From contig NZ_JAUOPN010000001.1 in the NCBI RefSeq assembly GCF_030547005.1, positions 372,001 to 436,000 of the forward strand: DNA of 64,000 nt, given 5' to 3'. Below the pieces are notes generated by a model, which was given only the letters and a program-made list of their open reading frames with translations, did no database searches and was not told where the DNA came from. This document shows, one piece after another, positions 1 to 37,912 of the stretch (position 1 is its first letter; each line of letters starts with the position of its first letter). The stretch is from Maribacter sp. 1_MG-2023. Its GTDB lineage: Bacteria > Bacteroidota > Bacteroidia > Flavobacteriales > Flavobacteriaceae. A program made the position numbers and the translations under genes.

Positions 1-439
1 AATTGATATGTTTTAAATTGCCTAGTTCTGTAAATTCATTTTGCCATGCCTCTACTACTTTAATAATAGCATTAACCTCCATATCAGGAATTGTTAAAGA
101 ATGGTTGGGCGAGAAGCAAATAACCTTACAAATGCCGCTTTCACCTTCAGCGTGTAGTAAACCATCAGTATAATCGAACAATGGCGTATCGTTTAAAAGA
201 GCACCAAAATCATTTTTAAAAACTAATGTATTCTTGTAATCGGGGTTAGGTTCACCATTCATTCGGGCATTAGTAGGACACAGAAAACATTCAGAGTCAT
301 AATTGATTTTTTCTCTTTTTTCAAAAGATTCTGTTTTGCCTTGCCAAGGTCTTTTGGTTCTATGTGGTGATACCAAGATCCACTCACCAGTAAGTATATT
401 AAGTCTTCTATGTGGAGCGTTCGCTAATTCAGATTTCAT
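1..439 (-). CDS. galT: UDP-glucose--hexose-1-phosphate uridylyltransferase, N-terminal part (cut by window edge)
   Basis: About 146 codons starting at an ATG (complement of 437..439) and running off the window; the full family length is about 350 residues. The product exchanges UMP between UDP-glucose and galactose-1-phosphate in the Leloir pathway, in the cytoplasm. The translation shows the GalT N-terminal signatures TGEWILVSPHRTKRPWQG, the zinc-type pair CFLC, and NPDYKNTLVFKNDFGALL. It lies downstream of, and on the same strand as, the demethylase cassette, with 172 bases in between, so free D-galactose made there can enter the Leloir route. Family assignment is firm; the missing C-terminal catalytic HPH motif cannot be checked. 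Confidence 0.93.
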   Translation of the reverse strand, partial: MKSELANAPHRRLNILTGEWILVSPHRTKRPWQGKTESFEKREKINYDSECFLCPTNARMNGEPNPDYKNTLVFKNDFGALLNDTPLFDYTDGLLHAEGESGICKVICFSPNHSLTIPDMEVNAIIKVVEAWQNEFTELGNLKHIN

Positions 440-611
440 TTATGAGCTAAAAGTTTGAGGTTTTAATTAATTATAAAGCCTCTGATTTTTATTCTTTTTC
501 TTGAAACCTAATGTACAGGTATTGAGTAGGAAACGTAGATATTTAGACTTGACAAAAACTGAACAAAATAAATTTTCGGTATAATTGACTCTAAATCAGT
601 AATAAACGGGC

Positions 612-1409
612 TTACTTTATTTCGTTAAAGAAAATCAATGTTTTCTCAATATGTTTTTGCCAATAAGACCATTCGTGTTTGCCTTCGAATTCTTGGTAGG
701 TATGATTAATATCTGAGTTGTTCAGTTTTGTATGAAGTGCTCTATTGTACTCAATTAGTAAATCATCTTTACCACAATCAAAACGAAATGGAGGTAGCTC
801 TTTCTTATTTTGTTGCATCAACTTAAAAACATCTTCGTTTAACGCTTCGGTTTGACTATAATTAATTTCCTTTTCTTCTACAAATAAATGCATTTGATTG
901 GTGTTGGTAATAGAAGAATGACCTGAAAATCCTTTATATTTTTTAGGATATTTAGCAGCAAGACGCAAAGCACCATAGCCACCCATTGATAGACCAGAGA
1001 TAAATAAATTTGATGATGAACTTGTAGCATTAATATTTTCAATAACTGCATTGATTACATCTTCAACAATCCATTTTTCAAAATCAAGATTATTATGAGG
1101 TAGATATGCAGAGCCATCTCCCCATAATCCGTCAGAAGGCATTGCAATAACCATTGGTTGTATAAGCCCTTCAGTCATCATTCGTAAAACGGTAAAGTGT
1201 ACACCTGCTTTGTGTGCCCAAATCCAAGCACTACCGTACACGCCGTGAAGAAGCGTAACTATAGGTAAGTCTTTTAGATTTTCATCTGGGGGGACAAATA
1301 CACAAATGTCTCCACGACCTTTAAGATTAGGAGTCTTTACAGTAATAAATCTAAGATGATTATTTTCAAATTCAGGATTTGATATTTCTGTTGTTCTAAA
1401 TTTTGACAT
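612..1409 (-). CDS. Serine hydrolase, esterase D / S-formylglutathione hydrolase-like
   Basis: A 265-residue alpha/beta hydrolase with no signal peptide, so probably cytoplasmic. The nucleophile elbow GLSMGG places Ser141; Asp215 or Asp216 and His245 complete a likely triad, and LLHGVYGS around residue 56 forms the oxyanion region. The family includes S-formylglutathione hydrolase, which releases formate. It starts 6 bases downstream of the alcohol dehydrogenase stop and is the last gene of the P450 cassette. In related marine flavobacteria the equivalent dehydrogenase/hydrolase pair is implicated in detoxifying formaldehyde made by demethylation. Whether the substrate is a glutathione thioester, another thiol ester or a sugar ester cannot be read from the sequence. 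Confidence 0.8.
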   Translation of the reverse strand: MSKFRTTEISNPEFENNHLRFITVKTPNLKGRGDICVFVPPDENLKDLPIVTLLHGVYGSAWIWAHKAGVHFTVLRMMTEGLIQPMVIAMPSDGLWGDGSAYLPHNNLDFEKWIVEDVINAVIENINATSSSSNLFISGLSMGGYGALRLAAKYPKKYKGFSGHSSITNTNQMHLFVEEKEINYSQTEALNEDVFKLMQQNKKELPPFRFDCGKDDLLIEYNRALHTKLNNSDINHTYQEFEGKHEWSYWQKHIEKTLIFFNEIK

Positions 1410-1415
1410 ATTTGT

Positions 1416-2531
1416 TTATTCGAAAACGATTACACCTTTAGCATTTTTACCTGCCAGCATATCATCAAAAGCTTGTTGTAGATTTTCAATAGGGTATGTT
1501 CTGGTAATCATTTCATCTAACATCAAATCTCCTTTATCATACAAGCTTACTAATTTTGGAAAATCTATTTGTGGACGACATTTACCGTAAAGCGGATTAA
1601 TGTAAATTTTATCCCATTCAAATAAGTTCATATCTATAGAAATGGTTTCTTCTATACCACTAACTTGAACAGCTGTGCCTGCATTTCTAATCATTGCTAA
1701 CGGTGCTGCACCTAATGCCGGCACGGCTGTACACTCAAAAGCAAAATCGGCACCTCTACCTTCGGTTTCTGTTTTTACTTTCTCTGATGCCTGTAGTAAA
1801 CCTTTATCATTTCTATCTGCTAGAATTGTATGGGTTGCCCCAAACTGTTTTGCCATTTCAAGACGCTCTTCATTAATGTCAATAGCTATAATTTTTGATG
1901 CTCCAGAAATTCTAGCACCTTGTATAACATTTAAGCCAACTCCTCCAGTACCAATAATTACGGCAGAACTTCCTGCGGTTACTTTTGCCGTATTCACAGC
2001 AGAACCATAACCCGTCATAACTCCACAACTAATAATACTTGCAGAGGGCATAGGTAGATTACCATTAAATTTGACGCATGCCGATTCTTTCACCAAAGTA
2101 AACTCAGAAATAGTACCAATATTAAAAGAACGCTCAATAGGTTTATCATTCCATTTTGTTCCTTCTAAATGAGCGTGACCAGGAGTGAAGCCATTTCCGC
2201 CAGCGGTTACAGGCGAATTGTTTTCACAAATATGCTGATTGCCTTCTTGACACTGAAAACATTTCATACAAGGAGTAGCCCAATTTAAAATCACCTTATC
2301 GCCGACCTTAAAATCTGTAATAGCGCTGCCAATTTGTTCTACAATACCTGCGCCTTCATGACCTATAACAATTGGTTTGCCCCATGTTAGAGAATCGTGA
2401 TCGGTATGGCAAAGTCCGGCAGCTTTTATTTTAACGATTATTTCATCTGCTTTAGGTTCTGCTATAGTAACTGTATCTATGATAAATTTACCATCACCTG
2501 TTGCTATTGCGCATTTTGACTGTATTGACAT
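1416..2531 (-). CDS. Zinc-dependent alcohol dehydrogenase of the formaldehyde-handling type
   Basis: A 371-residue medium-chain dehydrogenase resembling class III (formaldehyde-oxidising) enzymes. Catalytic zinc ligands are Cys41, His58 with Glu59, and Cys169; the structural zinc site is Cys88, Cys91, Cys94 and Cys102. A Rossmann motif GTGGVGLNV near residue 194 binds NAD(P). It sits between the ferredoxin reductase (23-base gap) and the serine hydrolase (6-base gap), clearly one transcription unit. Oxidation of formaldehyde or of its adduct with a thiol fits the context, because the P450 upstream releases formaldehyde. Another alcohol or aldehyde substrate is possible. Confidence 0.88.
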   Translation of the reverse strand: MSIQSKCAIATGDGKFIIDTVTIAEPKADEIIVKIKAAGLCHTDHDSLTWGKPIVIGHEGAGIVEQIGSAITDFKVGDKVILNWATPCMKCFQCQEGNQHICENNSPVTAGGNGFTPGHAHLEGTKWNDKPIERSFNIGTISEFTLVKESACVKFNGNLPMPSASIISCGVMTGYGSAVNTAKVTAGSSAVIIGTGGVGLNVIQGARISGASKIIAIDINEERLEMAKQFGATHTILADRNDKGLLQASEKVKTETEGRGADFAFECTAVPALGAAPLAMIRNAGTAVQVSGIEETISIDMNLFEWDKIYINPLYGKCRPQIDFPKLVSLYDKGDLMLDEMITRTYPIENLQQAFDDMLAGKNAKGVIVFE

Positions 2532-2554
2532 TTTTTTTCTTTTTTGTACTGATT

Positions 2555-3799
2555 TTATATATAACTAGTAGGGGTTATGGCTATTGAAACATCTGAAAGT
2601 TTAAGCTTGTCAATTTTTTGATTTTTTTGAATAAATCTAATACCTAGCATATAGGCTTTTGCATTGTTTATGGCATCAACAGCAAGTAATTCATCATCCT
2701 TAAAATACCAAACCGATTGGCAGTTGTCTCTATCTGTTTCTATTCTCTTAATAGTTTGATTATAACCCTGCGATAAACCCACCATTTGTAGTTTTACATC
2801 ATATTGATCAGACCAAAACCAAGGTATGGAGTCATATGCTACAGCTTTGCCACAAATAGATTTTGCAGCAATTTTTGCTTGGTCTACAGCGTTTTGTACA
2901 GATTCTAATCTAATATATTTTTTGTAATGTGGATTAAAATGAAACGTACAATCGCCTAAAGCATATATGTTTGGGTCATTGGTTTTGCAGTTGGCATCAA
3001 CTTTAATTCCGTTTTCAATTTCTAAACCAGCTTCTTCGGCTAATTCAGTATTTACTTTAATGCCTACGCCAACAATAATGATATCTGCTTTATAGCTAGA
3101 GTTATCATCGCATTGAACTTCATTGATATTATTATCAAAATTAATAGATGTCACATTTTTATTTGATAAAACCGATACGCCATGTTTATGATGTAACTCT
3201 TTAAAATAGGTAGACATTTCTGGAGCGGTAACACGAGAAAGAACTCGTTCTTCGCGTTCCAATACGGTTACCGAAGCACCTAGTTTACTTAAAGAAGCAG
3301 CAGTTTCTAGACCAATGTACCCACCACCTATAATAATTACCTTGTTGTGGTCTTTGTTAAGAGATTTTCTAATATTAAGAGCATCTTCTGCCGTTCGCAT
3401 CGCAAAAACATTTTTTGCGCTATTCAATCCTTTTATTGGTGGAATAAAGGGGCGTGCTCCTGTAGTGAGAACTAATTTGTCATACTTCTGAACCGAACCA
3501 TCAGAAACAGTGACGCTTTTTTCTTTACGGTTAATTGAGCTGATGATTTTACCTAATTTAAGGGTAATCTTATCAGTCTCATAATTTTGTTTCGGAAACA
3601 GTAAATCTTGCTGAGTTCCTTCTTCACTTGTTAAGTATGCTTTAGATAAAGGCGGTCTGTGATATGGAAATTCTGGGTCGCGATCAAATAAAATAATATC
3701 ACCTTCCCAACCTTCTTTTCGTAAGGCGAAAGCAAAATTTACTCCAGCGTGACTTGCACCGATTACGACGCAAATTTTATTTGATGTTTCGGTAGACAT
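2555..3799 (-). CDS. FAD-dependent ferredoxin reductase, electron donor for the P450
   Basis: A 414-residue flavoprotein of the putidaredoxin/rhodocoxin reductase type. An FAD-binding fold starts at residue 10 (VVIGASHAG); the NAD(P)H-binding fold IIIGGGYIGLETA lies near residue 155; the second FAD motif IYALGDC is near residue 293. It passes electrons from NAD(P)H to the adjacent [2Fe-2S] ferredoxin. Its ATG overlaps the ferredoxin stop by one base (TAATG), so the two are translationally coupled. No signal peptide is present. This completes a class I, three-component P450 system. Confidence 0.92.
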   Translation of the reverse strand: MSTETSNKICVVIGASHAGVNFAFALRKEGWEGDIILFDRDPEFPYHRPPLSKAYLTSEEGTQQDLLFPKQNYETDKITLKLGKIISSINRKEKSVTVSDGSVQKYDKLVLTTGARPFIPPIKGLNSAKNVFAMRTAEDALNIRKSLNKDHNKVIIIGGGYIGLETAASLSKLGASVTVLEREERVLSRVTAPEMSTYFKELHHKHGVSVLSNKNVTSINFDNNINEVQCDDNSSYKADIIIVGVGIKVNTELAEEAGLEIENGIKVDANCKTNDPNIYALGDCTFHFNPHYKKYIRLESVQNAVDQAKIAAKSICGKAVAYDSIPWFWSDQYDVKLQMVGLSQGYNQTIKRIETDRDNCQSVWYFKDDELLAVDAINNAKAYMLGIRFIQKNQKIDKLKLSDVSIAITPTSYI

Positions 3800-4107
3800 T
3801 ATTTGGCAACATTTAAAACCACCCCATCAATAGCATCTGAAACATCTATTTGGCAACAAAGGCGACTGTATTCGCTAACATTATCATCAAATTCTAGCAT
3901 GTCACTTTCTAATTGACTAGGTGCTCCAACTTTGTCCCAAAACGCAGGCTCAACATGAACATGGCAAGTTGCACAAGAGCAAACTCCTCCACAATCACCA
4001 TCAATTCCTTTAACCTTATTCTGTACCGCAAGTTCCATTACACTACCTGTAGTAGCCTCCGTTATAATGGTGTCGTTATCGCTTGTTACAAATGTTATTT
4101 TTGCCAT
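3799..4107 (-). CDS. [2Fe-2S] ferredoxin, adrenodoxin/putidaredoxin type
   Basis: A 102-residue ferredoxin. The cluster ligands follow the Cys-x5-Cys-x2-Cys pattern, Cys39, Cys45 and Cys48, with the fourth at Cys85 in RLCCQID; Cys43 and Cys84 are additional cysteines near the cluster. It carries single electrons from the reductase encoded immediately downstream to the P450 encoded 20 bases upstream. Gene order P450, ferredoxin, reductase on one strand supports a dedicated redox chain. Confidence 0.95.
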   Translation of the reverse strand: MAKITFVTSDNDTIITEATTGSVMELAVQNKVKGIDGDCGGVCSCATCHVHVEPAFWDKVGAPSQLESDMLEFDDNVSEYSRLCCQIDVSDAIDGVVLNVAK

Positions 4108-4127
4108 ATTTAATGTATTAGTTTTTA

Positions 4128-5282
4128 TTAAGAGTTGAATTTAACGTGTAAACTGTCGAAGCCTACTTTACGTTTAAAGTGACCTAAATCTTCAATATTT
4201 TCTTTGTAATCTATGATGTCTATTGATTTGACTTCATCTAATAAAGTTGAAATCAAAATCTTTAGTATTTGTCTAGCATGTGTTGCTCCTAAGCAGTTAT
4301 GTGTGCCAAAGCCAAATGCTACATGCGGATTTATTTTTCTGTCGATAACAATTTCATTTGCATTCTCGAATACATTGGCATCACGATTGGCAGAAGCCCA
4401 ACAAAGTGATATTTTACTATCTGCTTTAAGTGCATGTTCACAAACGGTAGTATCTTCGGTTGTAATTCTTCCCATTTGTGTTAGCGGCGAAAAATATCTA
4501 ATTAATTCTTCTATAGTGTTATTCAATATTTCAGGCTCATTGCGCAACCTTTCTAATGATTCTGGATGTTCAGAAAAATAAGAAATGGAATTTGTAACGG
4601 CATTTATAACAGTATCTCTACCGCCAGCAAAAGTTAGAATAATAACACCCTTAACTTCTTCTTTGGTCAGCTTTTTACCATTAGCCTCAGATGCAAGTAA
4701 CACAGAATACAAATCGTCTGTTGGGGCGGCACTTGCTCTTTCAATTTCCTTGTCAATATAATCATACAAAACATTAGCCTTGTCAACATCTAAAGCAGAG
4801 CCTTCACTTCTAAAAACATGTGTACCCCATGAAATCCATGTTTCAGCTTGCGCGTATGGCGTGTTTAATAAAAGGGTTAATGCTCGTGATTGTAATGGTA
4901 AAGCAAATTCACTAACAATATCTAAAGAGTTCCTTTTTAAAACCTCTTTGACTAAAGATTGAATTTGATTCTTAAGCTTTGCTGTATATTCTTCCTCTAG
5001 AGGTCGTTTGAACCACGGGTCTAAAATATCTCTAAAACCTTTATGTAATGGTGGGTCTACTTCAAACGGGATCTGACGTATATCTCTTATATTTTCTTCG
5101 GATGGAATAACGATTCGCCCAGGTGCAGCTCCAGATTGATAGGTTTTTGCATTATGCGCACACTTTCTAACATCTTTATGACCTAAAACCATGGTGACTT
5201 CTTCACCCTGATCGTCCATCTTGCCAAATCCTTTTTCAATTCTTTCCTTTTCAAAAGGGTCTAGAAACTTGCTCTTATCCAT
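4128..5282 (-). CDS. Cytochrome P450, probable 6-O-methyl-D-galactose demethylase (CYP236A-like)
   Basis: A 384-residue soluble P450 without membrane anchor. The heme-thiolate loop FGFGTHNCLG gives Cys330 as axial ligand; the K-helix ExxR is Glu259/Arg262; the I-helix carries AGGRDT at residues 219-224. It leads a five-gene minus-strand unit with its own ferredoxin, reductase, dehydrogenase and hydrolase, beside galT and in a galactan locus. That organisation matches the P450 systems of Zobellia and Formosa that oxidatively demethylate 6-O-methyl-D-galactose from porphyran, giving galactose and formaldehyde. The P450 family is certain; the substrate is inferred from context. The divergent AraC gene starts 158 bases away. 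Confidence 0.93.
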   Translation of the reverse strand: MDKSKFLDPFEKERIEKGFGKMDDQGEEVTMVLGHKDVRKCAHNAKTYQSGAAPGRIVIPSEENIRDIRQIPFEVDPPLHKGFRDILDPWFKRPLEEEYTAKLKNQIQSLVKEVLKRNSLDIVSEFALPLQSRALTLLLNTPYAQAETWISWGTHVFRSEGSALDVDKANVLYDYIDKEIERASAAPTDDLYSVLLASEANGKKLTKEEVKGVIILTFAGGRDTVINAVTNSISYFSEHPESLERLRNEPEILNNTIEELIRYFSPLTQMGRITTEDTTVCEHALKADSKISLCWASANRDANVFENANEIVIDRKINPHVAFGFGTHNCLGATHARQILKILISTLLDEVKSIDIIDYKENIEDLGHFKRKVGFDSLHVKFNS

Positions 5283-5440
5283 GGTGTTGACTATTATTTA
5301 TTTTTAAAAAGTATACTCGCAAATATGAATAAACTATTGGTGCGTTAATTAATCTTTATTAGCCTATATAGTGCTTATTTTGACATTTTGATAGGTATAT
5401 TGATGTTTTATATATCATAATAGATTATAATTGCTATTAT

Positions 5441-6298
5441 ATGAAAGCACAATTTGAAAAGATAAATTCTAAGCAAAGTGCATTATATGCGTTTGTTTAT
5501 GAGGATGTTGAGTTTGATGCGCCTTGGCATTTTCACCCAGAATATGAACTAACTTATATTGTTAAAGGGAAAGGGATGAGGTACGTAGGTAATAGCATTC
5601 AAAAGTTCGAAGAAGGTGATTTTGTTTTAATAGGTGCAAATTTGCCGCATTGCTGGAAAAACACAGATTTACATATTGGGAATGTGAAGTCGGTTGTTTT
5701 TCAATGGAACGATTTGTTTTTAGGGGAGAACTGGTTTCAAAAAGAAGAGTTTTATCAAATTAATTTATTGTTAAAAAAAGCTGCGAAAGGAATATTGTTT
5801 CATTCGTATTCCTCAAAAAAATCAGCAAAGAGATTGATGGCTATTATAGAGAAAAAACCCTTAGACAGATTATTGAGTTTTTTAGAATTACTAGAAGAAT
5901 TGGCATTGGTAAATTCATTCGAGTTATTAACGACTACCAGTTTCTCGCCAAATCTTAATTTAAAAGCGAACAATAGAATTGATGTAGTGTACGATTATGT
6001 GGAGAAGAACTATAATTCCAAAATTAAATTAGATGATGTATCTACTTTGGTATCTATGAGTAATGAAGCGTTTTGCCGTTTTTTTAAAAAATCGCTTAAT
6101 AAGTCATTTTTTACCTTTATAAATGAATACCGTATTAACCTTGCCAGTAAAATGCTAATTGAAACAAACAAACAAGTAAGCCAAATTGCTTACGATTGTG
6201 GGTATGAAAGTCTGCCTTTTTTTTACAGACAATTTCAAAAATATATGAATTGTTCACCAAAGGTTTTTAAAAATCAATATTTGAAAATGAATTCATAA
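5441..6298 (+). CDS. AraC-family transcriptional regulator
   Basis: A 285-residue regulator with an N-terminal cupin sugar-sensing domain (WHFHPEYELTYIVKGKG and GDFVLIGANLPHCW, residues about 28-78) and a C-terminal double helix-turn-helix (about 185-283, including VSQIAYDCGYESLPFFYRQF). It is divergent from the P450 cassette and shares a 158-base intergenic region, so it most likely controls that cassette, possibly in response to a methylated or free galactose. The effector and the operator are not visible. Confidence 0.9.
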   Translation: MKAQFEKINSKQSALYAFVYEDVEFDAPWHFHPEYELTYIVKGKGMRYVGNSIQKFEEGDFVLIGANLPHCWKNTDLHIGNVKSVVFQWNDLFLGENWFQKEEFYQINLLLKKAAKGILFHSYSSKKSAKRLMAIIEKKPLDRLLSFLELLEELALVNSFELLTTTSFSPNLNLKANNRIDVVYDYVEKNYNSKIKLDDVSTLVSMSNEAFCRFFKKSLNKSFFTFINEYRINLASKMLIETNKQVSQIAYDCGYESLPFFYRQFQKYMNCSPKVFKNQYLKMNS

Positions 6299-6448
6299 TT
6301 TATTTGATTTGTACTTTTAATTCTATTAGGTTTCAAGATTAAAATTAGTATTGGCAGAATATTTCTTGATTTATTTTATAGAGAAACATATATTTTAGCC
6401 AGAGTGTAATTGAATTATTAATTAAATTTTTTCTTTGAGAATATACTT

Positions 6449-8083
6449 ATGAAAAGAATACTGTCTGTATTATGCTTGCTTACCATTACCATAGGTTATG
6501 CTCAAAATAATTTAAAAGATATTAGTGCTAAACAAGCCTTTGAAAGAGCATTAGAATTGAGATTCCAAAACCCTGATAGTGCTGTGGCTTTATTGGATTA
6601 TAGTAGTAATAATTATTTACAATTAAATGATACGGTTGGTACCACATATAGTTTGTTAGAGAAAGCTTATGTGTTCGAAAATACTGCGCGATACGCAAAC
6701 TCATATGATGCTTTATGGACAGCGTTAATTTTAAATGATAAAAGAGACGATGATAAATTGAAATCTATCATTTTCGTTAGACTGGGCAGAATATACAGTT
6801 ATAATAAAAGGGTTGAAGAGTCTTATAAGTATTTAAAATCTTCTTTAGAACTACAGAAAAGAAGAGTTGAGAAATTAAACCTAAAAAAGTCTGTATTAGT
6901 ACCCTATTATTACTCTTTGGCAAAGACGAGTAGAGAGTTGCAAGAAAATAACGTTGCTCGTATTTATTTAGACAGTTGTTATTTATATTTTTCTGATGAG
7001 GTTGATATTCAGCCATTAGCTCATTTGGAGTATAGGGGCAAAGAATATCTTGACTTTGAGAAGGCTGTTTTGTTGGAAAGAGAAGATAATAATCAAGAGG
7101 CAATAGCAATAATGGAGGGTGTAATACCTTATTTTCAAAAAAATGAGCCAACTTATCTCGTATTAATTTATAAGTATTTGGGCGACATGTATCTTAATAT
7201 TTCTAATTTAAAAAAGAGTGAAGAACTATATAGAAAATCTTTAGATATTTCAGAAAATTATAAAAGTCATCTGGACTTTACACCATTGGTCTATGAAAAT
7301 CTCACTGAATTATACCTTAGAAAAAATGAATATAAGAATGCCTTTAAAAGTTTAAAGAAGGCCAAAGAGCTAGATGCTAAATTTTTTGATGGTAGAAGTT
7401 CTATAAACCAATCTTTATTAGAAATAAAAGATAACTATCGAATAGAAAAAGATCGACAAGAAAAACAAATTCAAGAACAATATTTAAAGCAACTTGAGCA
7501 AGAAGAAGAGATTAGTAAACTTCAATTGATTATTCTGATAGGGTCTATTATCTTTTTACTAATTATAGGTTATGGTTATTTAAATTATTTAAGAACAAAA
7601 CATACAAATGAAAAAATATTCATAGAAAAAAATAAGGAATTGGAAATAAAAAAGCAACAAGCTCTTATTGATATAAAGAATAAAGAATTAGCATCGTCGG
7701 CATTACAGTTGATAGAAAAAGATGAATTTTTGAAAGAGATAAAATCTAAGGTTAGTGTTGGTACAGATAAGAATAAAATTCACGAAATAAATAAGGTGCT
7801 AAGGTCAATATCGACTAATAATAATAATAATTGGGATGAGTTTAAGCATCGATTTATCTCAGTAAACAAGGACTTTTACAATAAAATTTTTGAGAAATTT
7901 CCTAGCTTAAGTCAAAGTGATCAAAAGATTTGTGCATTGATAAAATTGAACATGTCTAGTAAAGATATGGCGAGGTTATTAGGTATATCTGTAGAGTCTG
8001 TACATACTTCAAGACATCGTATTCGCAAAAAAATGGAACTACCAAGAAATGTAAATTTAGAAGATTACATTAATTCTATTTAA
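6449..8083 (+). CDS. Membrane-anchored TPR sensor with LuxR-type DNA-binding domain
   Basis: A 544-residue protein with a signal peptide (cleavage after GYAQ, about residue 19), a helical TPR-like region to about residue 350, one transmembrane segment at about 357-380, a charged coiled coil, and a C-terminal LuxR-type helix-turn-helix (DMARLLGISVESVHTSRHRI, about 505-524). The layout puts the TPR part in the periplasm and the DNA-binding part in the cytoplasm. No kinase or receiver is present, so it is a one-component membrane regulator. It precedes the susC/susD/VCBS group and probably controls it. The ligand is unknown. Confidence 0.82.
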   Translation: MKRILSVLCLLTITIGYAQNNLKDISAKQAFERALELRFQNPDSAVALLDYSSNNYLQLNDTVGTTYSLLEKAYVFENTARYANSYDALWTALILNDKRDDDKLKSIIFVRLGRIYSYNKRVEESYKYLKSSLELQKRRVEKLNLKKSVLVPYYYSLAKTSRELQENNVARIYLDSCYLYFSDEVDIQPLAHLEYRGKEYLDFEKAVLLEREDNNQEAIAIMEGVIPYFQKNEPTYLVLIYKYLGDMYLNISNLKKSEELYRKSLDISENYKSHLDFTPLVYENLTELYLRKNEYKNAFKSLKKAKELDAKFFDGRSSINQSLLEIKDNYRIEKDRQEKQIQEQYLKQLEQEEEISKLQLIILIGSIIFLLIIGYGYLNYLRTKHTNEKIFIEKNKELEIKKQQALIDIKNKELASSALQLIEKDEFLKEIKSKVSVGTDKNKIHEINKVLRSISTNNNNNWDEFKHRFISVNKDFYNKIFEKFPSLSQSDQKICALIKLNMSSKDMARLLGISVESVHTSRHRIRKKMELPRNVNLEDYINSI

Positions 8084-8581
8084 ACACATATAGCTTATAA
8101 TTAAGTGCAAATTTGTCGACTGGTAAACTTTATATCAAGTCGATAAACTTAATGATTCTTTGATATTGGGTTATTTTCTTGATGATTTTTTAAAATTAAT
8201 GGAACATAACTGCATTCACACTTCTCAAATTACAATCAAATAGATATTTAAAAATTAGCTGCACTTATAGAGCTGCTTTGAGTTACGGCATCATATTGAT
8301 TGTTTATTGTTTAATCATAAATGAGTGCGCTATAAAATTTTCTTTTGATAAAAATTTTAACCCAGTAGCACCTAATTATCCCGTTACCGGAATAATTATT
8401 TATTACGAAAAATTAATTCTTTGAGCATAAAAATAAATTTGAGCTGATAAGCGTAGAAAAGTACAGTTGATAAAATTGCTTTAGAAAATACCCAAATTCA
8501 GTTCTAGATTATGATATAAATGAAGGTATTATAATTAATAATGCAGAGTAGATTTAAGTAAAATAATCTGGATTTATAAGT

Positions 8582-8620
8582 AAAAAAAGATAGTCTGTAA
8601 AGACAGTCTTTTTTTTGATA
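8582..8620 (+). terminator. Possible intrinsic terminator
   Basis: An imperfect inverted repeat (AAAAAAGATAGTCTGT, then ACAGTCTTTTTTTT) ending in a run of T on the plus strand. It lies 500 bases after the TPR-LuxR stop and 220 bases before susC. Two mismatches in the stem make it weaker than the other terminators in this window. Confidence 0.45.
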
Positions 8621-8733
8621 AATATTTCAACTTCAAGACAAAAAACATTTGAAAGCGTTGAAAAACCGACATTTTAGCGCTTGAGTCAAGTTCTTGTACA
8701 GTTTTAAAATGGTAAAAAAAATAGAGTTATAAT

Positions 8734-8741
8734 TAGTTTTG
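8734..8741 (+). promoter_or_regulatory. Candidate -7 box for susC
   Basis: TAGTTTTG matches the Bacteroidota -7 consensus TAnnTTTG and lies about 100 bases upstream of the susC start. No convincing -33 TTTG partner is visible, so an activator may be needed or the match may be chance. Confidence 0.35.
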
Positions 8742-8840
8742 TTCAATCACAGGCTTAAAAATTATGGATACATTAAAATATTAACAATAATCTTAATTCA
8801 ACTGTAAGTCTAATAACTCAAGCAAATTTTATTTAAACCA

Positions 8841-11800
8841 ATGATTATGAAAAAACAATTTTTTGAATTTTTAAAGAAATGCTTTCTGTCGGGACTGTTC
8901 TTTGCCCTACTAAGCATGAACAGCGCAATTGGTCAAGAGACCATTTCGGGAACAGTAACAGATAACTTAGGACCTGTAGTTGGGGCTAATGTTTTGGTAA
9001 AGGGATCTACTAATGGTTCACAGACCGATTTCGATGGTAATTTTTCTATTCAAGCATCTCCAGATGATGTTTTGGTAATATCATATATAGGATATGCCTC
9101 TCAGTCTATTAAGGTCGGAAATCAAAAAACAATAAATGTTGTATTAGCTGAAGATGCAAGTTTATTAGACGAGGTAGTAGTAATAGGTTATGGTACTTCT
9201 AAAAAGAGCGATCTTACCGGTGCCGTTTCTCAAGTAACAGCAAAATCATTTGAAAACCAACCATTAACTCGTGTAGAAGATGCATTGCAAGGTAGAGCGG
9301 CAGGGGTGTCGGTTTCTGGATCTGGAGCACCAGGCGCAGGTATTAAAGTAAGGGTTAGAGGGGTAAATTCTATAACAGGTAATAATGACCCTCTTGTAGT
9401 AGTAGATGGTGTTTTTGGTGGTGATTTAAGAACGATCAACCCAAATGATATTGCCTCTATAGAGGTGCTAAAAGATGCTTCTTCACTAGCAATTTACGGT
9501 TCTAGGGCTTCGAATGGGGTGATTTTGGTGACCACTAAGAAAGGAGCAGGAAAGGCCAAAATAAGTTTTGATCACTTCGTATCTATAAGTAGTCAAGCAA
9601 GAAGTATAGAAACGTTGGGTTCTGGTGATTTTGCTAGACAAAAAAATGCAGGGTTAATTGCAAACGGAGCAGACCCAGCATATACAGAACAACAAATATC
9701 TGCTCTTGACGCGAACCCAATCAATTACGAAGATCAATTGTTTCAAACAGGTATAGGTACAAATACGCAGTTGGCAGTAAGTGGGGGCAAAGATGATTTA
9801 AGATACTTTGTTTCTGGTAACTATGTAAACCAAACTGGTACGGTTATAACTAATGAATATGAGCGATTCTCTTTACGTTCTAATATTAGTTTAAATGTAA
9901 CAGATAAATTATCGGTAGGTATAAATTTATACGGTAGTAGAGAATCAGAAGTAAATAATCCAGATGATTTTAACCGTTTTAAAGGAAGTAGTATCTTAAA
10001 GACGCTTACATGGGATCCTACATTACCTGTACAAGACAGTGATGGTAATTTTATTACAAGTTCAAATTTTGCAAACAATGGTTTTAACCCCATTGGTACA
10101 CTTTTAAGAAGTAACAGAGATCGTGCTGCAGATCGTTTAAATACGAATATTAATGTTGGCTATAAATTCACGGATCATTTTAAATATAGTCTTGTTGTCG
10201 GTGCGTCAACAATTAATCAAAATGTTGAATCTTTTATACGAGACGATAACCCTACCGATGCTAATCCTAATCATACCCGTGTTTCCTACGATAATTTCAG
10301 AAACACAAGTCATCAAGTAAGTAATATTCTTAATTATAATAATAGTTTTAATAAGCATAATCTTGACGTTACAGGTGTATATGAATTTCAAGGAGACCGT
10401 AATACTTTTAATGGTTACAACACATTTGCTATAGCTACTGGCGGTATATATTTAGCTGATAATGAAGATCAAGCGAGAGAAAATTTCTATAATGATGGTA
10501 ATCAAAATTCAATACAATCATATTTAGGTCGTGTTCAATACAATTATAACAGTGCGCTTTACTTAACAGGTTCTATGCGTATCGATGAATCGTCAAGGTT
10601 TGCAAAAGGTAATAGAACTGGGTATTTTCCTTCTGGGGCAATTGCTTATAGTTTTAATAACATGCCATTTATTGAAAATGGTAAAACACTAAGTAGTTTA
10701 AAGTTAAGAGCTGGCTGGGGTCAGGTAGGTAATCAGAATATAAACTCTACAGCACGTTTTTCATTGACTAACGATGCCGGTAATTATCCTTTTGACGGTT
10801 CTACCTTGGTATCTGGTTCAACACTTACACAAGTTGGGAATCCAAATTTAACATGGGAAACAACTTCACAAACAAATATTGGTGTTGATATGGGGTTCTT
10901 TAGTGGTAGACTTAATGCTTCGGTAGATTATTTTAGTAAGACAACTGAAGACCTATTATTAAGAACAATAATTCCGGGTACATCTTTTGCAAAATTTGAA
11001 AATGCAGGGGTAGTTGAAAATCAAGGTATAGATTTGACATTGTCCGGCACAATTGTTCAAAATGATAATTTCACTTGGGATTCATCTTTTAACCTTTCTC
11101 ACGTAACGAACGAAGTAACTGAATTGGTAAACGATGTTGATCAAATATTAGGAAATATTAGACCGGTAGATGGTACTGAAAATTCTATAAATGTAATAGA
11201 GCTTGGTCAACCGCTAGGTCAATTTTACGGTCTTACATTTTTAGGTACTTGGAAATCAACCGATGATTTACCAGAAGGTATACAAGCAGGTGATGCAAGA
11301 TATTTGACTGATGACGAGGGTAATTCTGTTTTCTCTACCATTGGTAATGGGTTGCCAACCTTAACATGGGGTTTTAATAACACATTTAACTATAAAAATT
11401 TGAGCCTGAACGTCTTCGTAAACGCTGCGCATAATTTTGATGTTTATAATCAAGTTGCAGCGGCTATTAATGGTGGTGCCGGTGATTTTAGAGATGACCT
11501 TTCTCCGTTAAGTGTAAATAAATGGACTCCGCAAAATGAAACAGATTTACCACGTAGAGGTTCACTAAATGTTTTGAATTCTTCTCGATATGTTGAAGAT
11601 GGTAGTTTTATTCGATTAAGTAATCTAAAATTAGGTTACACATTTGAAGATATCATTAAAAATGTTGAAAGTCTTCAAGTTTATGTCAGTGGGCAAAACT
11701 TACTGCTACTTACCGATTATAGTGGTTATGACCCAGAGGTATCTTCTACACCTGTTAATCAAGATTTAAATAATACAGATGCTGGAGCCGGTATTGATAT

Positions 11801-13445: not shown

Positions 13446-13539
13446 AATACCTAATGCATTCTCTCGAAAATAGGAATAGTTATTATATACACTTATTTTA
13501 AAGACTTTATTATAAGCTATGCAAGTCAAATACTTAAAG

Positions 13540-16500
13540 ATGAATAATTCATTTATAAAACCTTGTTTTTATGTGTTAGCATTTTTTTCTTTTTCATGTA
13601 ATTCTGTTTCAGATGATAAAAAAGAAAATACAGAAGTAAATTCTCCTAAATTATTCACTGAAATTACCTCTGCCAGTTCTGGCATACATTTTAACAATAC
13701 ACTTGAAGAAACGATAGAATCTAATTACTATCAATATATGTACACCTATATAGGTGCAGGGGTAGCAGCTGGTGATATAAATAACGACGGCTTAGTTGAT
13801 CTTTATTTTACGGCAAATTCATCACCAGATAAGCTCTATCTAAATTTAGGTGATTTAAAATTTAGAGATATCACTGAAGAAGCTGGTATTTTAAATCTTC
13901 CCGGTTTTAATACAGGTGTAACTATGGCTGATATCAATGGCGATGGTTTATTAGATATTCATGTAGCTCGTGGTGGTTGGTTGGATCAAAATGGTCAATT
14001 CGATAACTTAGTATACCTAAATAATGGAGATTTAACTTTTGAAGAAAAAGCTAAAGAAATAGGTCTAGCAGATGGTAACAGAACAATACAGGCTACTTTC
14101 TTTGATTTTGATAGGGATAATGACCTAGATGTCTATATTTCTAATACACCAGATATAACGAGCAGAACTAAAATAGTAGATTTAAGTAAAGTGCATAGTA
14201 ACCCAAAAACTATGGAGCTAAAAGGTAGTGATCGGCTTTATGAAAATGATGGTAATGGACATTTTACGGATATTTCTTTAAAAGCAGGATTATATTATGA
14301 CATCGGTTTTGGCTTAAATCCACAAGTTGGTGATCTTAACAATGATGGTTGGTTAGATATCTATGTTTGTAATGATTTTAATTATCCTGATTTGGCTTAT
14401 ATAAATAATGCTGATGGCACATTTAAAGAGTCTAGTAAAACCATGTTTAAACATATGTCTTTTAATAGCATGGGAAGTGATTTTGTAGATATTGATAATG
14501 ACGGGCAATTAGATTTACTTACGTTAGATATGAACCCCGAAGACTACAAAAGGGCTAAATTGAATATGGGTATGATGCCAATTAGTCAATTTGAAATGAT
14601 GGTAGATCAAGGGTACCATCATCAGTATGTTCATAATATGCTGCAAATGAATAATGGTAACGGTTCTTTTAGTGAAATATCTAAAATGGCAGGTGTTGCC
14701 GATACCGACTGGTCTTGGGCAGTTTTAGCAGCCGATTTTAATTTAGATGGCCTTAATGATATTTTTATAACTAATGGTATTTACAGAGATGTAATGAATC
14801 GTGATGTTATAGAGAAAACTATGGATATACTTCGTTCAAGGGGCAGAAAACCTACAGAGCAAGATTTTTTAGAGTATACCAACATGTTGCCACAACAAAA
14901 ATTAAAAAACTATTTTTTTAAAAATAATGGAAATCATACATTTTCAAATTCTACCAATGATTGGGCTACTATTTCACCATCGCTATCTAATGGGGCAACT
15001 TATGCCGATTTAGACAATGACGGTGATCTTGAAATTATTGTAAATAATATTAACCAGAAAGCGACAATTTTAAAAAATAATTCGATAGAACAAAAATATG
15101 GTGATTTTATAAAAATAAATTTAGAAGGGAAAGATCAGAATACCTATGGGGTTGGTTCAAAAGTCACCTTAGTTTTTGATAATCATTCAATACAATCGAA
15201 AGAATTGACAAATACAAGAGGTTTTTTGTCTTCGGTTTCGAACACGCTTCATTTTGGACTGCCAAAAAATAAAAAACCAAATAAAATAATAGTGCAATGG
15301 GCTGACAATAGTATTAAAGAGTATCAAAAATTCAATATTAATCAAACAAATAAATTAAACTACTTAGAAGGTGTTGCTAGTACCATTAACAAAGATTTAA
15401 AGAAGCCAATATTTGAAAAGCAATCGTATGCTTTTGAACATAAAGAAGAATATTTCAACGACTATGATTTACAGAAGCTATTACCACATAAATTATCACA
15501 AAATGGCCCTGGTTTAGCTGTAGGCGATATTAATGGAGATGGAAATGAAGAGGTATATATTGGTGGAGGAAAAAACCAAGCAGGTCAGTTAATTGCATTT
15601 GGGGAATCTAAAGAAAGTCTGTTATCAATACAAACGTTCGAAAATGATAAGATGTACGAAGATCAAAGTGCTAGTTTTTTTGATGCCGATGGTGATGGTG
15701 ATTTAGATCTTTATGTAGTTAGCGGGAGTTATGAGAATTATAGAAATACAAGATTCGCTCAAGACCGATTATACTTAAATAATGGAGAGGGTAGATTTAC
15801 AAAGTCCCTAACGGCATTGCCAGAAATAACGTCATCTGGTTCTGTGGTTGTTTCTGGTGACTTTGATAACGACGGAGATTTAGATCTCTTTGTTGGCGGT
15901 AGGGTAATACCAGGGCAGTATCCGTTTATGCCATCAAGTTATATTTTACAAAACAATGAAGGTGAATTTTCTCGTGTAGAACATAAATTAGCTCCTGAAT
16001 TAGAAAAAATAGGTATGGTAACCGATGCCCAATGGGTAGATATAAATAATGATCAGTTTTTAGATTTGGTCGTTACCGGAGAGTGGATGGGTATTGAGAT
16101 ATTCGTCAATGAATCGGGTGCGTTTAAAAAGAGTGATGCATATAGAACCTTATCTAAATCGATAGGGTGGTGGAATAAAATTGAAGTAAAAGATATTGAT
16201 GCTGATGGTGATTTAGATATCATAGCTGGTAACGTAGGTTTAAACCATAAACTAAAGGCAAGTTATGAAGATCCATTATTAATATTTGCTAATGACTATG
16301 ATCGAAATGGTTCTGTTGATATAGTTATTGCAAAGGAAATTGAAGGTAAGAACATGCCGATTAGAGGAAAAGTAGATTTAGCGAAACAAATGCCTTATTT
16401 GGTAAACCGTATAGATACGCATGAACAATTTGCCAATTTAAATTTAGATGAGATTTTAGGAGGAAAAGTAGGAGAACCTTTGTATGCCGCAACAGAATTT

Positions 16501-16875
16501 AGGTCTGGTATATTTATTAATGCGGACAATAATTCTTTTACCTTTCAGCCTTTTGAAGATCGAATTCAACAATCTGTAATAAACAGTATTTTATTTGAAG
16601 ATTTTGATGGTGATGGTATACAAGATCTGCTACTTGCAGGAAACAATTACCAAACAGAGGTAGAAACTACTCGTGGCGATTCAGGTATAGGCTCTTTTTT
16701 AAAAGGTGGTGAAAAAGGGGAGTTTAGCCTAGTATCACATTTAGATTCTGGTTTTTTTGTAGATAAAGACGTAAGAAATATGAGTTTTTTAAAATCTAGA
16801 AAGCAGGCTAGAGTAGTGGTTGCCAATAATAATGGGGTACATGATTTTTTTAAGCTACAATTTAAAAGTAACTAA
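13540..16875 (+). CDS. VCBS/FG-GAP repeat and ASPIC/UnbV lipoprotein (CRTAC1-like)
   Basis: About 1111 residues from the ATG at 13540, which gives a proper lipoprotein signal (FFSFSC); a start seven codons earlier is less suitable. At least 14 calcium-loop-like repeats of DxDxDGxxD form are spread along the chain (for example DINNDGLVD, DADGDGDLD, DFDNDGDLD), which suggests beta-propeller domains. An ASPIC/UnbV-like segment lies mid-protein (GVGSKVTLVF, then FGLPKNKKPNKIIVQW). It is probably surface-exposed. A paralogue at 31595..34936 has the same repeat order and C-terminal motif. Proteins of this type often accompany SusC/SusD pairs in Bacteroidota, but the role is not established. Confidence 0.87.
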   Translation: MNNSFIKPCFYVLAFFSFSCNSVSDDKKENTEVNSPKLFTEITSASSGIHFNNTLEETIESNYYQYMYTYIGAGVAAGDINNDGLVDLYFTANSSPDKLYLNLGDLKFRDITEEAGILNLPGFNTGVTMADINGDGLLDIHVARGGWLDQNGQFDNLVYLNNGDLTFEEKAKEIGLADGNRTIQATFFDFDRDNDLDVYISNTPDITSRTKIVDLSKVHSNPKTMELKGSDRLYENDGNGHFTDISLKAGLYYDIGFGLNPQVGDLNNDGWLDIYVCNDFNYPDLAYINNADGTFKESSKTMFKHMSFNSMGSDFVDIDNDGQLDLLTLDMNPEDYKRAKLNMGMMPISQFEMMVDQGYHHQYVHNMLQMNNGNGSFSEISKMAGVADTDWSWAVLAADFNLDGLNDIFITNGIYRDVMNRDVIEKTMDILRSRGRKPTEQDFLEYTNMLPQQKLKNYFFKNNGNHTFSNSTNDWATISPSLSNGATYADLDNDGDLEIIVNNINQKATILKNNSIEQKYGDFIKINLEGKDQNTYGVGSKVTLVFDNHSIQSKELTNTRGFLSSVSNTLHFGLPKNKKPNKIIVQWADNSIKEYQKFNINQTNKLNYLEGVASTINKDLKKPIFEKQSYAFEHKEEYFNDYDLQKLLPHKLSQNGPGLAVGDINGDGNEEVYIGGGKNQAGQLIAFGESKESLLSIQTFENDKMYEDQSASFFDADGDGDLDLYVVSGSYENYRNTRFAQDRLYLNNGEGRFTKSLTALPEITSSGSVVVSGDFDNDGDLDLFVGGRVIPGQYPFMPSSYILQNNEGEFSRVEHKLAPELEKIGMVTDAQWVDINNDQFLDLVVTGEWMGIEIFVNESGAFKKSDAYRTLSKSIGWWNKIEVKDIDADGDLDIIAGNVGLNHKLKASYEDPLLIFANDYDRNGSVDIVIAKEIEGKNMPIRGKVDLAKQMPYLVNRIDTHEQFANLNLDEILGGKVGEPLYAATEFRSGIFINADNNSFTFQPFEDRIQQSVINSILFEDFDGDGIQDLLLAGNNYQTEVETTRGDSGIGSFLKGGEKGEFSLVSHLDSGFFVDKDVRNMSFLKSRKQARVVVANNNGVHDFFKLQFKSN

Positions 16876-17070: not shown

Positions 17071-17697
17071 TTATACTGCTTCTTTAAATTTTCTAAAATG
17101 CTTGGCTAACGCTTCCCAATCATTCTTTTTTATCATTTCTGGGTCAAAAAGTAAACCGCCCATACCAAATGCTTTTGCACCAGCTTTTTTAAACTCTTCT
17201 ATGTTTTCTAGCGAAACTCCACCTGTCGGCATATAATCTATAAAGTCTAATGGGGCTGCTACATTAGCTATATAGCTAGGACCAAGGTTTGCTGAAGGAA
17301 AAACTTTAACCATTTTTGCACCTAATTTCCATGCGGTATAGATTTCTGTTGGTGAGAACGCCCCAGGAAAAACAGGAACATCTTTTTTAACACAAAAACG
17401 AATTACGTTTTTATTTACAATTGGGGTTACTATAAAAGAAGCACCCGCTTTCAATGCCTTTTTAGCATCTTTTTTGGTGAGTACGGTACCACAACCAATA
17501 TTTAATTTACCTTCAAATTCATTTACTAAAGCCTCAATGATCTGGTAAACATCTGGACTATTTCTTGTGATCTCTAAATTTGTAAAACCTTCGCTTACGA
17601 AGGTTCTGGCAATATTTAATACTGTCTCTTGGTCATAGCCCCTTAAAATACCAACAATAGGAGTTTCTGTAAAAAGCACTTCTGAAAATTCTTTCAT
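17071..17697 (-). CDS. dgoA: 2-dehydro-3-deoxy-6-phosphogalactonate (KDPGal/KDPG) aldolase
   Basis: A 208-residue class I aldolase that cleaves KDPGal or KDPG to pyruvate and glyceraldehyde-3-phosphate. Schiff-base Lys131 lies in MVKVFPS; Glu42 in LEIT is the likely general base; PTGGVS near residue 187 binds phosphate. It starts 2 bases after the stop of the lactonase, so both are co-transcribed. With the dehydratase and kinase encoded at 36741..38869 it completes the lower De Ley-Doudoroff route, which argues for the galacto isomer; the sequence alone does not separate KDPGal from KDPG. Confidence 0.9.
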   Translation of the reverse strand: MKEFSEVLFTETPIVGILRGYDQETVLNIARTFVSEGFTNLEITRNSPDVYQIIEALVNEFEGKLNIGCGTVLTKKDAKKALKAGASFIVTPIVNKNVIRFCVKKDVPVFPGAFSPTEIYTAWKLGAKMVKVFPSANLGPSYIANVAAPLDFIDYMPTGGVSLENIEEFKKAGAKAFGMGGLLFDPEMIKKNDWEALAKHFRKFKEAV

Positions 17698-17699
17698 AT

Positions 17700-18716
17700 T
17701 TAATTTAATTTTATTCTTAAGATGAGTTCATGGCATGAAACATACAATACTGACTCATCTTCGTTGAATACACAATTAGATGTTAGCTTGTCTGTTTTGA
17801 TCGTGCCTAAATGATTGCCGTTTTTGTTTATTACAAAAACACCGTCTGGGCCTGTTAGAAATATGGTACCGTCTTTTTTAATGGCCATACCATCTGGTTT
17901 TTGTTTAGAAATACTCTTGTCTAATGCTTCTTGAAGGTCTAAAACAATCTTTTCATTAGTTAAATGACCTCCTTCAGAAATATCATAACTAACGAATAAC
18001 GGAGGGTTTGAATTCGCAATATATAATTTTGAACCATCTGGAGATAAGCCTATTCCATTGGGTGTTGGCCATTTAGATGTTAGTAGTTTAACTTCTCTAT
18101 TCGTACCGATCATATAGACTCCTTCAAATTCTAATTCTTTAGAACCTTCTTCTAGCCCAAAATTGGGGTCTGTAAAATAAATATTACCTTTTTTATCGAT
18201 TACTAAATCGTTTGGAGCGTTGAACTTTTTACCTTCAAATTCGCTGGCAATTACCTCAAATTCAGAAACAGGGTTTTTATAATCTCCTAGATAACGTGCA
18301 ACCACCCTATCTCCGGTTTGACAAAGAATTAGATTGTTTTCTTGGTCTAAAAACATACCATTAGAGCCTTGAAGTTTTTTGTCTTTACCAGTATAGCCAC
18401 TTGGATTTAAAAATTGAACTGCTCCTTTTTCTTCTGTCCACTTATAGTTGATATTCTGTGGTACGTCAGAAAATAATAAACATTGTTCATCAGTAATCCA
18501 AACCGGACCTTCTGTCCATACATAACCATCTGCAATAACTTCAATTTTAGTCGATTGTGGTACATGATTGTAAAAAGAGTTATCTTTTTTTTCTAAATAT
18601 CCAATAGTAGGGTATGATGTAGTTTCTATTATTATGGTGGATGGTTTTTTGTGATTGTTATTTTTACATCCAACAAAAAATGTAATTACGATAATGAGCT
18701 TAAAAATAGATTTCAT
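17700..18716 (-). CDS. SMP-30/gluconolactonase-family lactonase, lipoprotein
   Basis: A 338-residue beta-propeller lactonase with a lipoprotein signal (lipobox FVGC, Cys17), so it is expected at the inner or outer membrane facing the periplasm. Family metal-site segments are visible: WTEGPVW with Glu69, FNAPNDLVID, and PTPNGIGLSPDGSKLY. It would open a sugar lactone such as galactono-lactone. It lies 2 bases upstream of the aldolase and 129 bases downstream of the DUF6786-like gene. A periplasmic lactonase combined with an ACS-type sugar-acid transporter (35425..36726) suggests that oxidation happens outside the cytoplasm. Confidence 0.85.
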   Translation of the reverse strand: MKSIFKLIIVITFFVGCKNNNHKKPSTIIIETTSYPTIGYLEKKDNSFYNHVPQSTKIEVIADGYVWTEGPVWITDEQCLLFSDVPQNINYKWTEEKGAVQFLNPSGYTGKDKKLQGSNGMFLDQENNLILCQTGDRVVARYLGDYKNPVSEFEVIASEFEGKKFNAPNDLVIDKKGNIYFTDPNFGLEEGSKELEFEGVYMIGTNREVKLLTSKWPTPNGIGLSPDGSKLYIANSNPPLFVSYDISEGGHLTNEKIVLDLQEALDKSISKQKPDGMAIKKDGTIFLTGPDGVFVINKNGNHLGTIKTDKLTSNCVFNEDESVLYVSCHELILRIKLN

Positions 18717-18845: not shown

Positions 18846-20081
18846 TTATAGCTTAACCCTGTCTGATAACTTTACACCCAAAACGTTTAGTGAGATTTGA
18901 TCTAAATACTCTTCGTCGCCTTTAAAGTGATAGGTTCTACTGGTATGTATGATTTCTTCTCCCACTTCAAGTTCTTTAGCAGCTGAAGAGCTCTCAACTT
19001 CGTAAAAAGGACCAAAGGGACCTGCCGTTGGGGTAACACCATCGTTAAAAATGTTGATTACATCACCACCGTAAGGATCACTGTTATTTTCTTTTTTTGA
19101 ATTCACGTAATAGGGACTATTTTCAAAGCTAAATTCTACTATTGTTAGCAGATTCAGTTCAGGAGAATAGCTGCCAAAAACCGGAACAGTGTTTTGGGGA
19201 AGAATGCCAATTTTATTCAAGTAATTAGCATCAGCTTTATAATAGACAAAGCCGTCTTTAATTTGCATTCGTGAATCGTCTAAGGGGGTGAAATAGTTTG
19301 TTACTTCATCTATATGACCAGTAGTGGGGATAATTGCAACTGTATTGTCGGTAGGAATAATACAGCCAAGAATCCAAATTGAAATAAGTCCGGTTTCTTT
19401 TGACCATTTATTCGCACCAATATTCACCATTTTTGTAACGGTTTCAAAACCTACGTAAGACACCTTGTCATCTACATAAACGTTAAGATTTTTCTCGATT
19501 TTATTTTTTCCTAGAATAGAGATTTTTCTTTCTACGTCAATATTGAATATATAATTTTGATAATTCTTGATGTGCATACGACCGGTACTTACAACTTCTT
19601 TATCTGTTTTTAATTTAATTTTGAATTGTAGGGTATCCAAATCTGGTGCAATGCGTGAGTTTGCATCTTCGAATGTATCACCTGATTCAAAAAATAGATT
19701 GTACTTACCATATTGTGGTCCAAACCACATTCTGTCTTCACCACCTAGATTACTAAACTTTTTCTTAAAGCTTCTGTTTAATACAGCTTCTCTTTTGAAC
19801 CAACCATAGCTTTTACCTTTTAGACCATTTGAACTACTGGTAAAAACGCGTCCTTGTAAGCTTCCAGAAACGGCTATCATGGAGTTTTCTGATTTGAGTA
19901 CATGAAGGTCTTCAATGTTATTTAATACCTTAAGGTCACTACCAAAAGTATTATGCGTAAATGTAGAATTACATCCTAATAAGGATATCATAGTTATTAG
20001 TAATACCAATGCTTTATAGCTTAACAAATAAGTAATTATAGAAACTACAGCCTTGATTTTTAATACCAGCTGATTTCTCAT
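18846..20081 (-). CDS. DUF6786-like lipoprotein of unknown function
   Basis: A 411-residue lipoprotein (lipobox SLLGC, Cys37). It is beta-rich, with segments that resemble the DUF6786 family as I recall it: GGEDRMWFGPQYGKYNLFF near residue 115, and DPYGGDVINIFNDG followed by GPFGPFYEVESSSAA in the last quarter. The pattern suggests a galactose-mutarotase-like carbohydrate-binding fold, but no catalytic residues can be assigned. It lies between the sulfatase (67-base gap) and the lactonase (129-base gap) on the same strand, so it belongs to the galactan operon and probably acts on a sugar in the periplasm. It could be a mutarotase, a hydrolase or a binding protein. Confidence 0.65.
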   Translation of the reverse strand: MRNQLVLKIKAVVSIITYLLSYKALVLLITMISLLGCNSTFTHNTFGSDLKVLNNIEDLHVLKSENSMIAVSGSLQGRVFTSSSNGLKGKSYGWFKREAVLNRSFKKKFSNLGGEDRMWFGPQYGKYNLFFESGDTFEDANSRIAPDLDTLQFKIKLKTDKEVVSTGRMHIKNYQNYIFNIDVERKISILGKNKIEKNLNVYVDDKVSYVGFETVTKMVNIGANKWSKETGLISIWILGCIIPTDNTVAIIPTTGHIDEVTNYFTPLDDSRMQIKDGFVYYKADANYLNKIGILPQNTVPVFGSYSPELNLLTIVEFSFENSPYYVNSKKENNSDPYGGDVINIFNDGVTPTAGPFGPFYEVESSSAAKELEVGEEIIHTSRTYHFKGDEEYLDQISLNVLGVKLSDRVKL

Positions 20082-37904: not shown

Positions 37905-37912
37905 ATTAGAAT

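Follow-up and report, generated by a model that had tools for sequence, protein, structure and literature searches.

A P450 O-demethylation cassette in an agar-type locus of Maribacter and a possible after-demethylation role for its alcohol dehydrogenase-esterase pair

We analysed a stretch of 64,000 nucleotides from the genome of Maribacter sp. 1_MG-2023 (contig NZ_JAUOPN010000001.1, positions 372,001 to 436,000; the genome comprises 4.27 Mb in 45 contigs), hereafter the window, which carries a cytochrome P450 gene cassette at its left end. Five genes, all intact and on the minus strand (window 612-5282), encode the P450, a ferredoxin, a ferredoxin reductase, a zinc alcohol dehydrogenase (ADH) and a serine esterase, with successive gaps of 20, -1, 23 and 6 nt. 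The preliminary description had reported this tight packing, as well as an AraC gene diverging from the cassette, and both are borne out. The galT gene that follows is not packed in the same way, because 172 nt separate it from the esterase. The features are as follows.

4128-5282, minus strand: cytochrome P450, probable 6-O-methyl-D-galactose demethylase (PF00067; 71.5% identity to PDB 6g5o; haem-loop motif FGFGTHNCLG and AGGRDT motif)
3799-4107, minus strand: [2Fe-2S] ferredoxin (PF00111)
2555-3799, minus strand: FAD-dependent ferredoxin reductase, class I redox partner (PF07992 and Reductase_C PF14759; overlaps the ferredoxin gene by 1 nt)
1416-2531, minus strand: zinc ADH, orthologue of FoADH and ZoADH (matches to PDB 8h2a and 8h2b)
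612-1409, minus strand: serine esterase with the CE1 / S-formylglutathione-hydrolase fold (PF00756, AlphaFold2 model, Foldseek)
440-611, minus strand: esterase-galT spacer of 172 nt, with an imperfect inverted repeat at 457-482
2-439, minus strand: 5' part of galT (TIGR00209; the whole gene, 338 aa, at L002:15423-16439, genome C1:371423-372439)
L002:14277-15422, outside the window: galK, abutting galT (by position and sequence reading only)
5355-5383, minus strand: candidate regulator site between the AraC and P450 genes (also conserved in G400, L079 and L120)
5441-6298, plus strand: AraC-family regulator with a cupin-type sensor domain (PF12833, PF07883)

The P450 is 71.5% identical to PDB 6g5o/6g5q over 383 aligned residues (E 3.6e-189), the next distinct PDB sequence following at 1.3e-41. 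PDB 6g5o is presumably the P450 of Zobellia galactanivorans, and P450s sharing more than 55% identity are placed in one subfamily, a threshold that the window protein clearly exceeds with respect to this crystallised enzyme. The Fer2 ferredoxin and the Pyr_redox_2/Reductase_C reductase encoded alongside constitute a class I redox partner system. The ADH matches 8h2a (E 5.3e-217) and 8h2b (E 1.6e-192) over its full length; these are FoADH and ZoADH, respectively (PMC10033563, cited here and below from part of its text), and full-length similarity together with linkage to the P450 places the window ADH in their group. The same paper (Brott et al. 2023) mentions a crystal structure of the Zobellia P450 without a PDB code, describes the gene set for 6-O-methyl-D-galactose (G6Me) in Formosa, Zobellia, Polaribacter, Maribacter and Arenibacter, and reports that Z. 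galactanivorans mutants lacking the P450 or the ADH are impaired in growth on G6Me but not on galactose. Because the P450 and the ADH match published proteins and the same gene set has been described, the locus is, on homology, a further member of the published G6Me demethylation system, as the preliminary description had proposed from its likeness to Zobellia and Formosa, and the identity of the P450 cassette is near certain. It resembles the clusters described for Z. galactanivorans and Formosa agariphila (PMC10033563) in its five homologous genes and its red-galactan setting but differs from them in having galT and galK directly downstream; CAZyme genes lie between ADH and esterase in F. 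agariphila as described there, whereas none lies between them in the window. The name CYP236A together with P450 gave no match in the literature searched. The cassette itself adds one more species to a known system, and the comparison across genomes matters more.

For this comparison, 397 genomes of the family were all searched with P450, ADH, PhyH and HPS queries (E cut-offs 1e-60, 1e-100 and 1e-50 for the first three; the curated TIGR03128 cut-off for HPS). Gene neighbourhoods were counted in 27 other P450 loci of the family (20-kb loci, about 10 kb on each side) and in 80 named P450 loci from GTDB, two sets that share some species and are not independent. The P450 was found in 28 of the 397 family genomes and in 11 of the 36 genomes of the genus; its nearest named relative (94%) is that of Maribacter spongiicola (locus L079, which is the same-genus genome G426). 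The ferredoxin accompanies the P450 in 27/27 family loci and in 79/80 named loci (the exception lies at a contig end), all five cassette genes occur together in 26/27 family loci, and P450, ADH and esterase in 60/80 named loci.

The ADH was detected in 41 of the 397 genomes: in 28/28 with the P450 versus 13/369 without it (Fisher p 2.4e-33, uncorrected for relatedness; Fisher values here and below overstate independence because the genomes are related). In one P450 genome (G334) it lies far from the P450, at locus L188. In 45/45 loci the esterase follows the ADH on its 3' side in the same orientation; these comprise 40 non-window ADH loci of the family sample and five new loci obtained by sampling the whole phylum (9 of 296 genomes ADH-positive, 4 of them already in the family count), and the gap is <100 nt in 36, <400 nt in 39 and up to 3.6 kb in the rest. 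Of the 80 named loci, 62 carry the ADH close to the P450 and 60 carry the esterase there; every locus with the esterase also has the ADH, and two have an ADH but no esterase (L145, and L158, whose contig is 5 kb long). Both are missing from 18 named loci, some of them on short contigs, and in 12 of these genomes that were checked the ADH was found elsewhere in 11, with the esterase 3' of it in 11/11 (one of these loci, L194, is the already counted L189). This distribution suggests that ADH and esterase form a portable, separable pair.

HPS, an enzyme of the ribulose monophosphate (RuMP) route, exceeded its cut-off in 14/397 genomes, 5/28 P450-positive versus 9/369 P450-negative (p 0.0016), and is present in the window's genome at C4:65410-66015. 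The idea that P450 genomes generally dispose of formaldehyde through RuMP was rejected: the route is enriched but missing from 23/28, so that another outlet is needed in most of them.

A PhyH-family 2-oxoglutarate-iron oxygenase is present in 12/13 P450-negative genomes that have the ADH, versus 21/356 P450-negative genomes without it (p 3.9e-13), and in 40/397 family genomes overall; since the query was picked for adjoining an ADH (locus L176), this tally leans towards linkage. In 8/13 the PhyH and ADH genes are at most about 7.5 kb apart (L176, L177, L179, L180, L183, L184, L186 and L187; Pfam assignments cover five), and in four more the PhyH gene lies elsewhere in the genome. Among the 336 family genomes with neither a P450 nor a PhyH match, just one has the ADH. 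In the thirteenth genome, which belongs to the window's genus (L175:10502-14191), the pair is adjoined by a 481-aa protein, an oxygenase-type reductase with FAD, NAD and 2Fe-2S domains, and a GlcNAc 2-epimerase-family protein. The 481-aa protein gave no Pfam match at E 0.001 and no NCBIfam match at E 1, and against the PDB just three matches, at E 0.22, all to Cas proteins; from its His/Glu motifs it looks diiron-like, and L175 is possibly a third demethylation system. In the phylum-wide sample, L192 has a P450, in L193 ADH and esterase are directly preceded by a much diverged PhyH (23-25%), and the genome of L189 carries a P450 on another contig. A PhyH gene also lies 3' of the esterase inside the P450 clusters of L033, L034, L040, L085, L091, L094 and L096 (three named Zobellia species and Ulvibacterium; some are the same species), and does not follow the esterase in the P450 cluster of Z. 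uliginosa (L038, L097). Because proteins of altronate-dehydratase, mannitol-dehydrogenase, PfkB and KDPG-aldolase type are encoded near PhyH in L176, L177 and L184, their gene content suggests uronates as possible substrates of the PhyH loci.

The protein at L176:11493-12374 and its relatives represent a PhyH subgroup linked to the ADH-esterase pair and to uronate-type genes, and are candidate methyl-sugar demethylases.

P450s and 2-oxoglutarate oxygenases can both remove O-methyl groups by hydroxylation, giving formaldehyde. In the window, electrons would pass from NADH through the reductase and the ferredoxin to the P450, which would hydroxylate the O-methyl group of 6-O-methyl-D-galactose; the product would split into D-galactose and formaldehyde, and the neighbouring galK and galT could channel the galactose into the Leloir pathway. 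The ADH and the esterase would constitute a second module that treats a demethylation product, most likely the one-carbon unit: a hydroxymethyl adduct on an unspecified carrier would be oxidised by the ADH to a formyl ester, from which the esterase would release formate. The AlphaFold2 model of the esterase (pLDDT 91.5), whose Foldseek matches are feruloyl esterases and S-formylglutathione hydrolases, fits formyl-ester hydrolysis without deciding it. As a whole, the locus is probably a class I P450 O-demethylase cassette within an agar-utilisation locus, with a galactose outlet and a putative one-carbon ADH-esterase module.

The constancy of the esterase behind the ADH in nearly all loci, together with PhyH where the P450 is absent, points to a shared reaction after oxidative O-demethylation, which would probably be one-carbon disposal; for such a one-carbon role of the pair we see roughly even chances. 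A bolder reading, to which we assign a probability of about 0.45, goes further: the pair may be a portable after-demethylation module serving at least two unrelated oxygenases (the class I P450, and PhyH as an undescribed class of methyl-sugar O-demethylases), perhaps a third (L175), and may finish on an unrecognised carrier or on a sugar hemiacetal. If true, this predicts a new enzyme class that removes methyl groups from sugars, and a shared reaction would give the pair testable partners. The role of the ADH that is required for growth on G6Me is an open question in print, the published formaldehyde tests being negative (PMC10033563). PhyH with O-demethylation and polysaccharide utilization gave no match in the literature searched, although neighbourhood figure S2 of PMC10033563 may show PhyH, and no work found there joins four of the five terms PhyH, ADH, esterase, Flavobacteria and methylated sugars.

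Several observations weigh against such a role of the pair after demethylation. The pair of a zinc ADH and a PF00756-fold esterase recalls the thiol-dependent formaldehyde oxidation by FrmA and FrmB, but neither protein reaches the curated cut-off (ADH 226.7 versus 543.95 bits, TIGR02818; esterase 30.9 versus 281.7, TIGR02821) and, unlike FrmA, the orthologous ADHs were inactive with every thiol assayed. According to the available text of PMC10033563, FoADH and ZoADH showed no formaldehyde activity with NAD alone or with glutathione, mycothiol, bacillithiol, cysteine, coenzyme A, ergothioneine or aromatic thiols; a narrow active site was argued for; and Zobellia possesses a RuMP route, reported to be induced on porphyran, yet needs the ADH. 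In our sample, 21 of the 40 PhyH genomes are devoid of the ADH, and the action of PhyH on methylated sugars is itself a prediction. In the surrounding 10 kb or so, L178, L181, L182 and L185 (four of the 13 pairs) have no such oxygenase, and none was found in the stretch examined for L190 and L191 of the phylum sample or for L188, a pair that lies apart from the P450 of its genome. Finally, Neolewinella aquimaris (L132, G718) has the P450 and no ADH match at E 1e-80.

The failure of every thiol in the published assays (PMC10033563, as far as its text was available) could also mean that the ADH intercepts the hemiacetal, i.e., that it oxidises the sugar hydroxymethyl ether formed by the P450 to a sugar formate ester, from which the esterase would free formate and galactose, so that free formaldehyde would be bypassed and NADH regained. 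This would suit the chemistry of the pair, an alcohol or hemiacetal oxidiser with an ester hydrolase, and a fold common to carbohydrate (CE1) esterases and S-formylglutathione hydrolases; the word hemiacetal is absent from the main text of PMC10033563. We nevertheless regard such an interception as quite unlikely, given that P450 and redox partners together are reported there to yield equal amounts of galactose and formaldehyde, that the ADH is described as inactive on sugars with a narrow pocket, and that one pair would need to accept different sugars beside PhyH and the P450. Alternatively, the pair might act on another compound of algal-polysaccharide breakdown, e.g., an aromatic aldehyde or a lactone, and its co-occurrence with oxygenases might reflect a shared algal diet. 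In vitro, the ADHs favour aromatic and furan aldehydes (PMC10033563), and several pairs unlinked to the P450 have sulfatase-like genes nearby, but the ADH knockout has a defect on G6Me and none on galactose (same source), and the near absence of the ADH from family genomes with neither oxygenase (1/336) would be hard to reconcile with it; this explanation appears rather unlikely.

The preliminary description had further interpreted the galT link as a direct route for the released galactose. galT scores 471.9 bits (TIGR00209 cut-off 102.1) and lies downstream on the same strand, and galK, assigned by position and sequence reading, begins on the base directly after it, so that this part of the claim stands; a galactose outlet through galK and galT is likely. 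As it is the genome's sole galT_1 match at E 0.001, an extra, dedicated copy was rejected. A conserved part of the system was likewise rejected, because none of the 27 other family genomes has galT or galK within some 10 kb of its P450 (galT of the same type occurs anywhere in 18 of them, and is missing at E 1e-40 from 9), and among the 80 named loci galT is near the P450 in only 2 (L131, L141) and galK in 3 (L079, L131, L141). The link is real, local and occasional, and its lineage-specific nature weakens the earlier interpretation.

It remains to be considered whether the cassette recruited galT and galK to serve it as a dedicated outlet for galactose and shares one transcript with them. Their position directly downstream of the esterase on the same strand would agree with this, as would the sister genome G400, which shows the whole arrangement (19.9 kb at 95% nucleotide identity; galT 96%, P450 99%), the presence of galT in just 4 of the 36 genomes of the genus, and the separate galTK-P450 neighbourhoods in L131 and L141. 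However, the 172-nt spacer contains an inverted repeat, the conserved block at 5355-5383 is not repeated before galT, and both genes are missing from the 27 other family loci. In M. spongiicola, moreover, the esterase is followed directly by galK without galT in between (L079:14674-14881), and no galT match was obtained at E 1e-20 in that whole genome (G426). Genes resembling dgoA, dgoK and dgoD could provide a second route. We thus consider the recruitment doubtful, and co-transcription from the P450 to galT may or may not extend across the spacer. P450, porphyran and galactokinase together gave no match in the literature searched.

Beside the Leloir genes, window 17071-18716 and 36741-38869 encode proteins of KDPG-aldolase, SMP-30/lactonase, enolase-superfamily dehydratase and DGOK-kinase type, a possible galactonate route.

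The P450 has an AraC-family homologue within some 10 kb in 26/27 family loci (29-66% identity) and 56/80 named loci (29-91%); this homologue diverges at <700 nt from the P450 or the ADH in 21/27 and 46/80, respectively. The AraC-P450 spacer contains a block (5355-5383) whose sequence is conserved in G400, M. spongiicola and Gelidibacter salicanalis; with up to 3 mismatches allowed, neither the window nor L002 has a further match to it. AraC may control the cassette; homologues also adjoin ADH-esterase pairs without the P450 (e.g., L176, L177 and L183).

The setting looks agar-type, because two GH16 proteins are closest to beta-agarases (one in the window, 38993-40081, closest to beta-agarase B; one outside it, L002:2905-3849) and GH117-like and anhydrogalactose-type genes are nearby. 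The latter stand past galK with an IclR regulator and a sulfatase, all identified by reading the sequence without a family scan. As the locus looks agar-directed, porphyran is not established as the inducer. For aerobic Pseudomonadota, Bacteroidota and Planctomycetota, too, G6Me demethylation has been assigned to agarose loci (PMC12316285, from part of its text). The Bacteroidetes promoter pattern matched the window 5 times (5.87 expected), never within the P450-galT cluster; positions 1-9000 contain 49 sigma-70-type promoter matches (41.8 in shuffles, sd 5.2) and 7 terminator-like sites (3.4 in shuffles, sd 2.0). Elsewhere in the window, a DUF6786 protein (18846-20081) between lactonase-type and sulfatase genes is possibly an unrecognised carbohydrate-active enzyme, and two proteins of 1118 and 1113 aa (13519-16875 and 31595-34936), near SusC/SusD-like genes, read as FG-GAP/VCBS-type repeat proteins.

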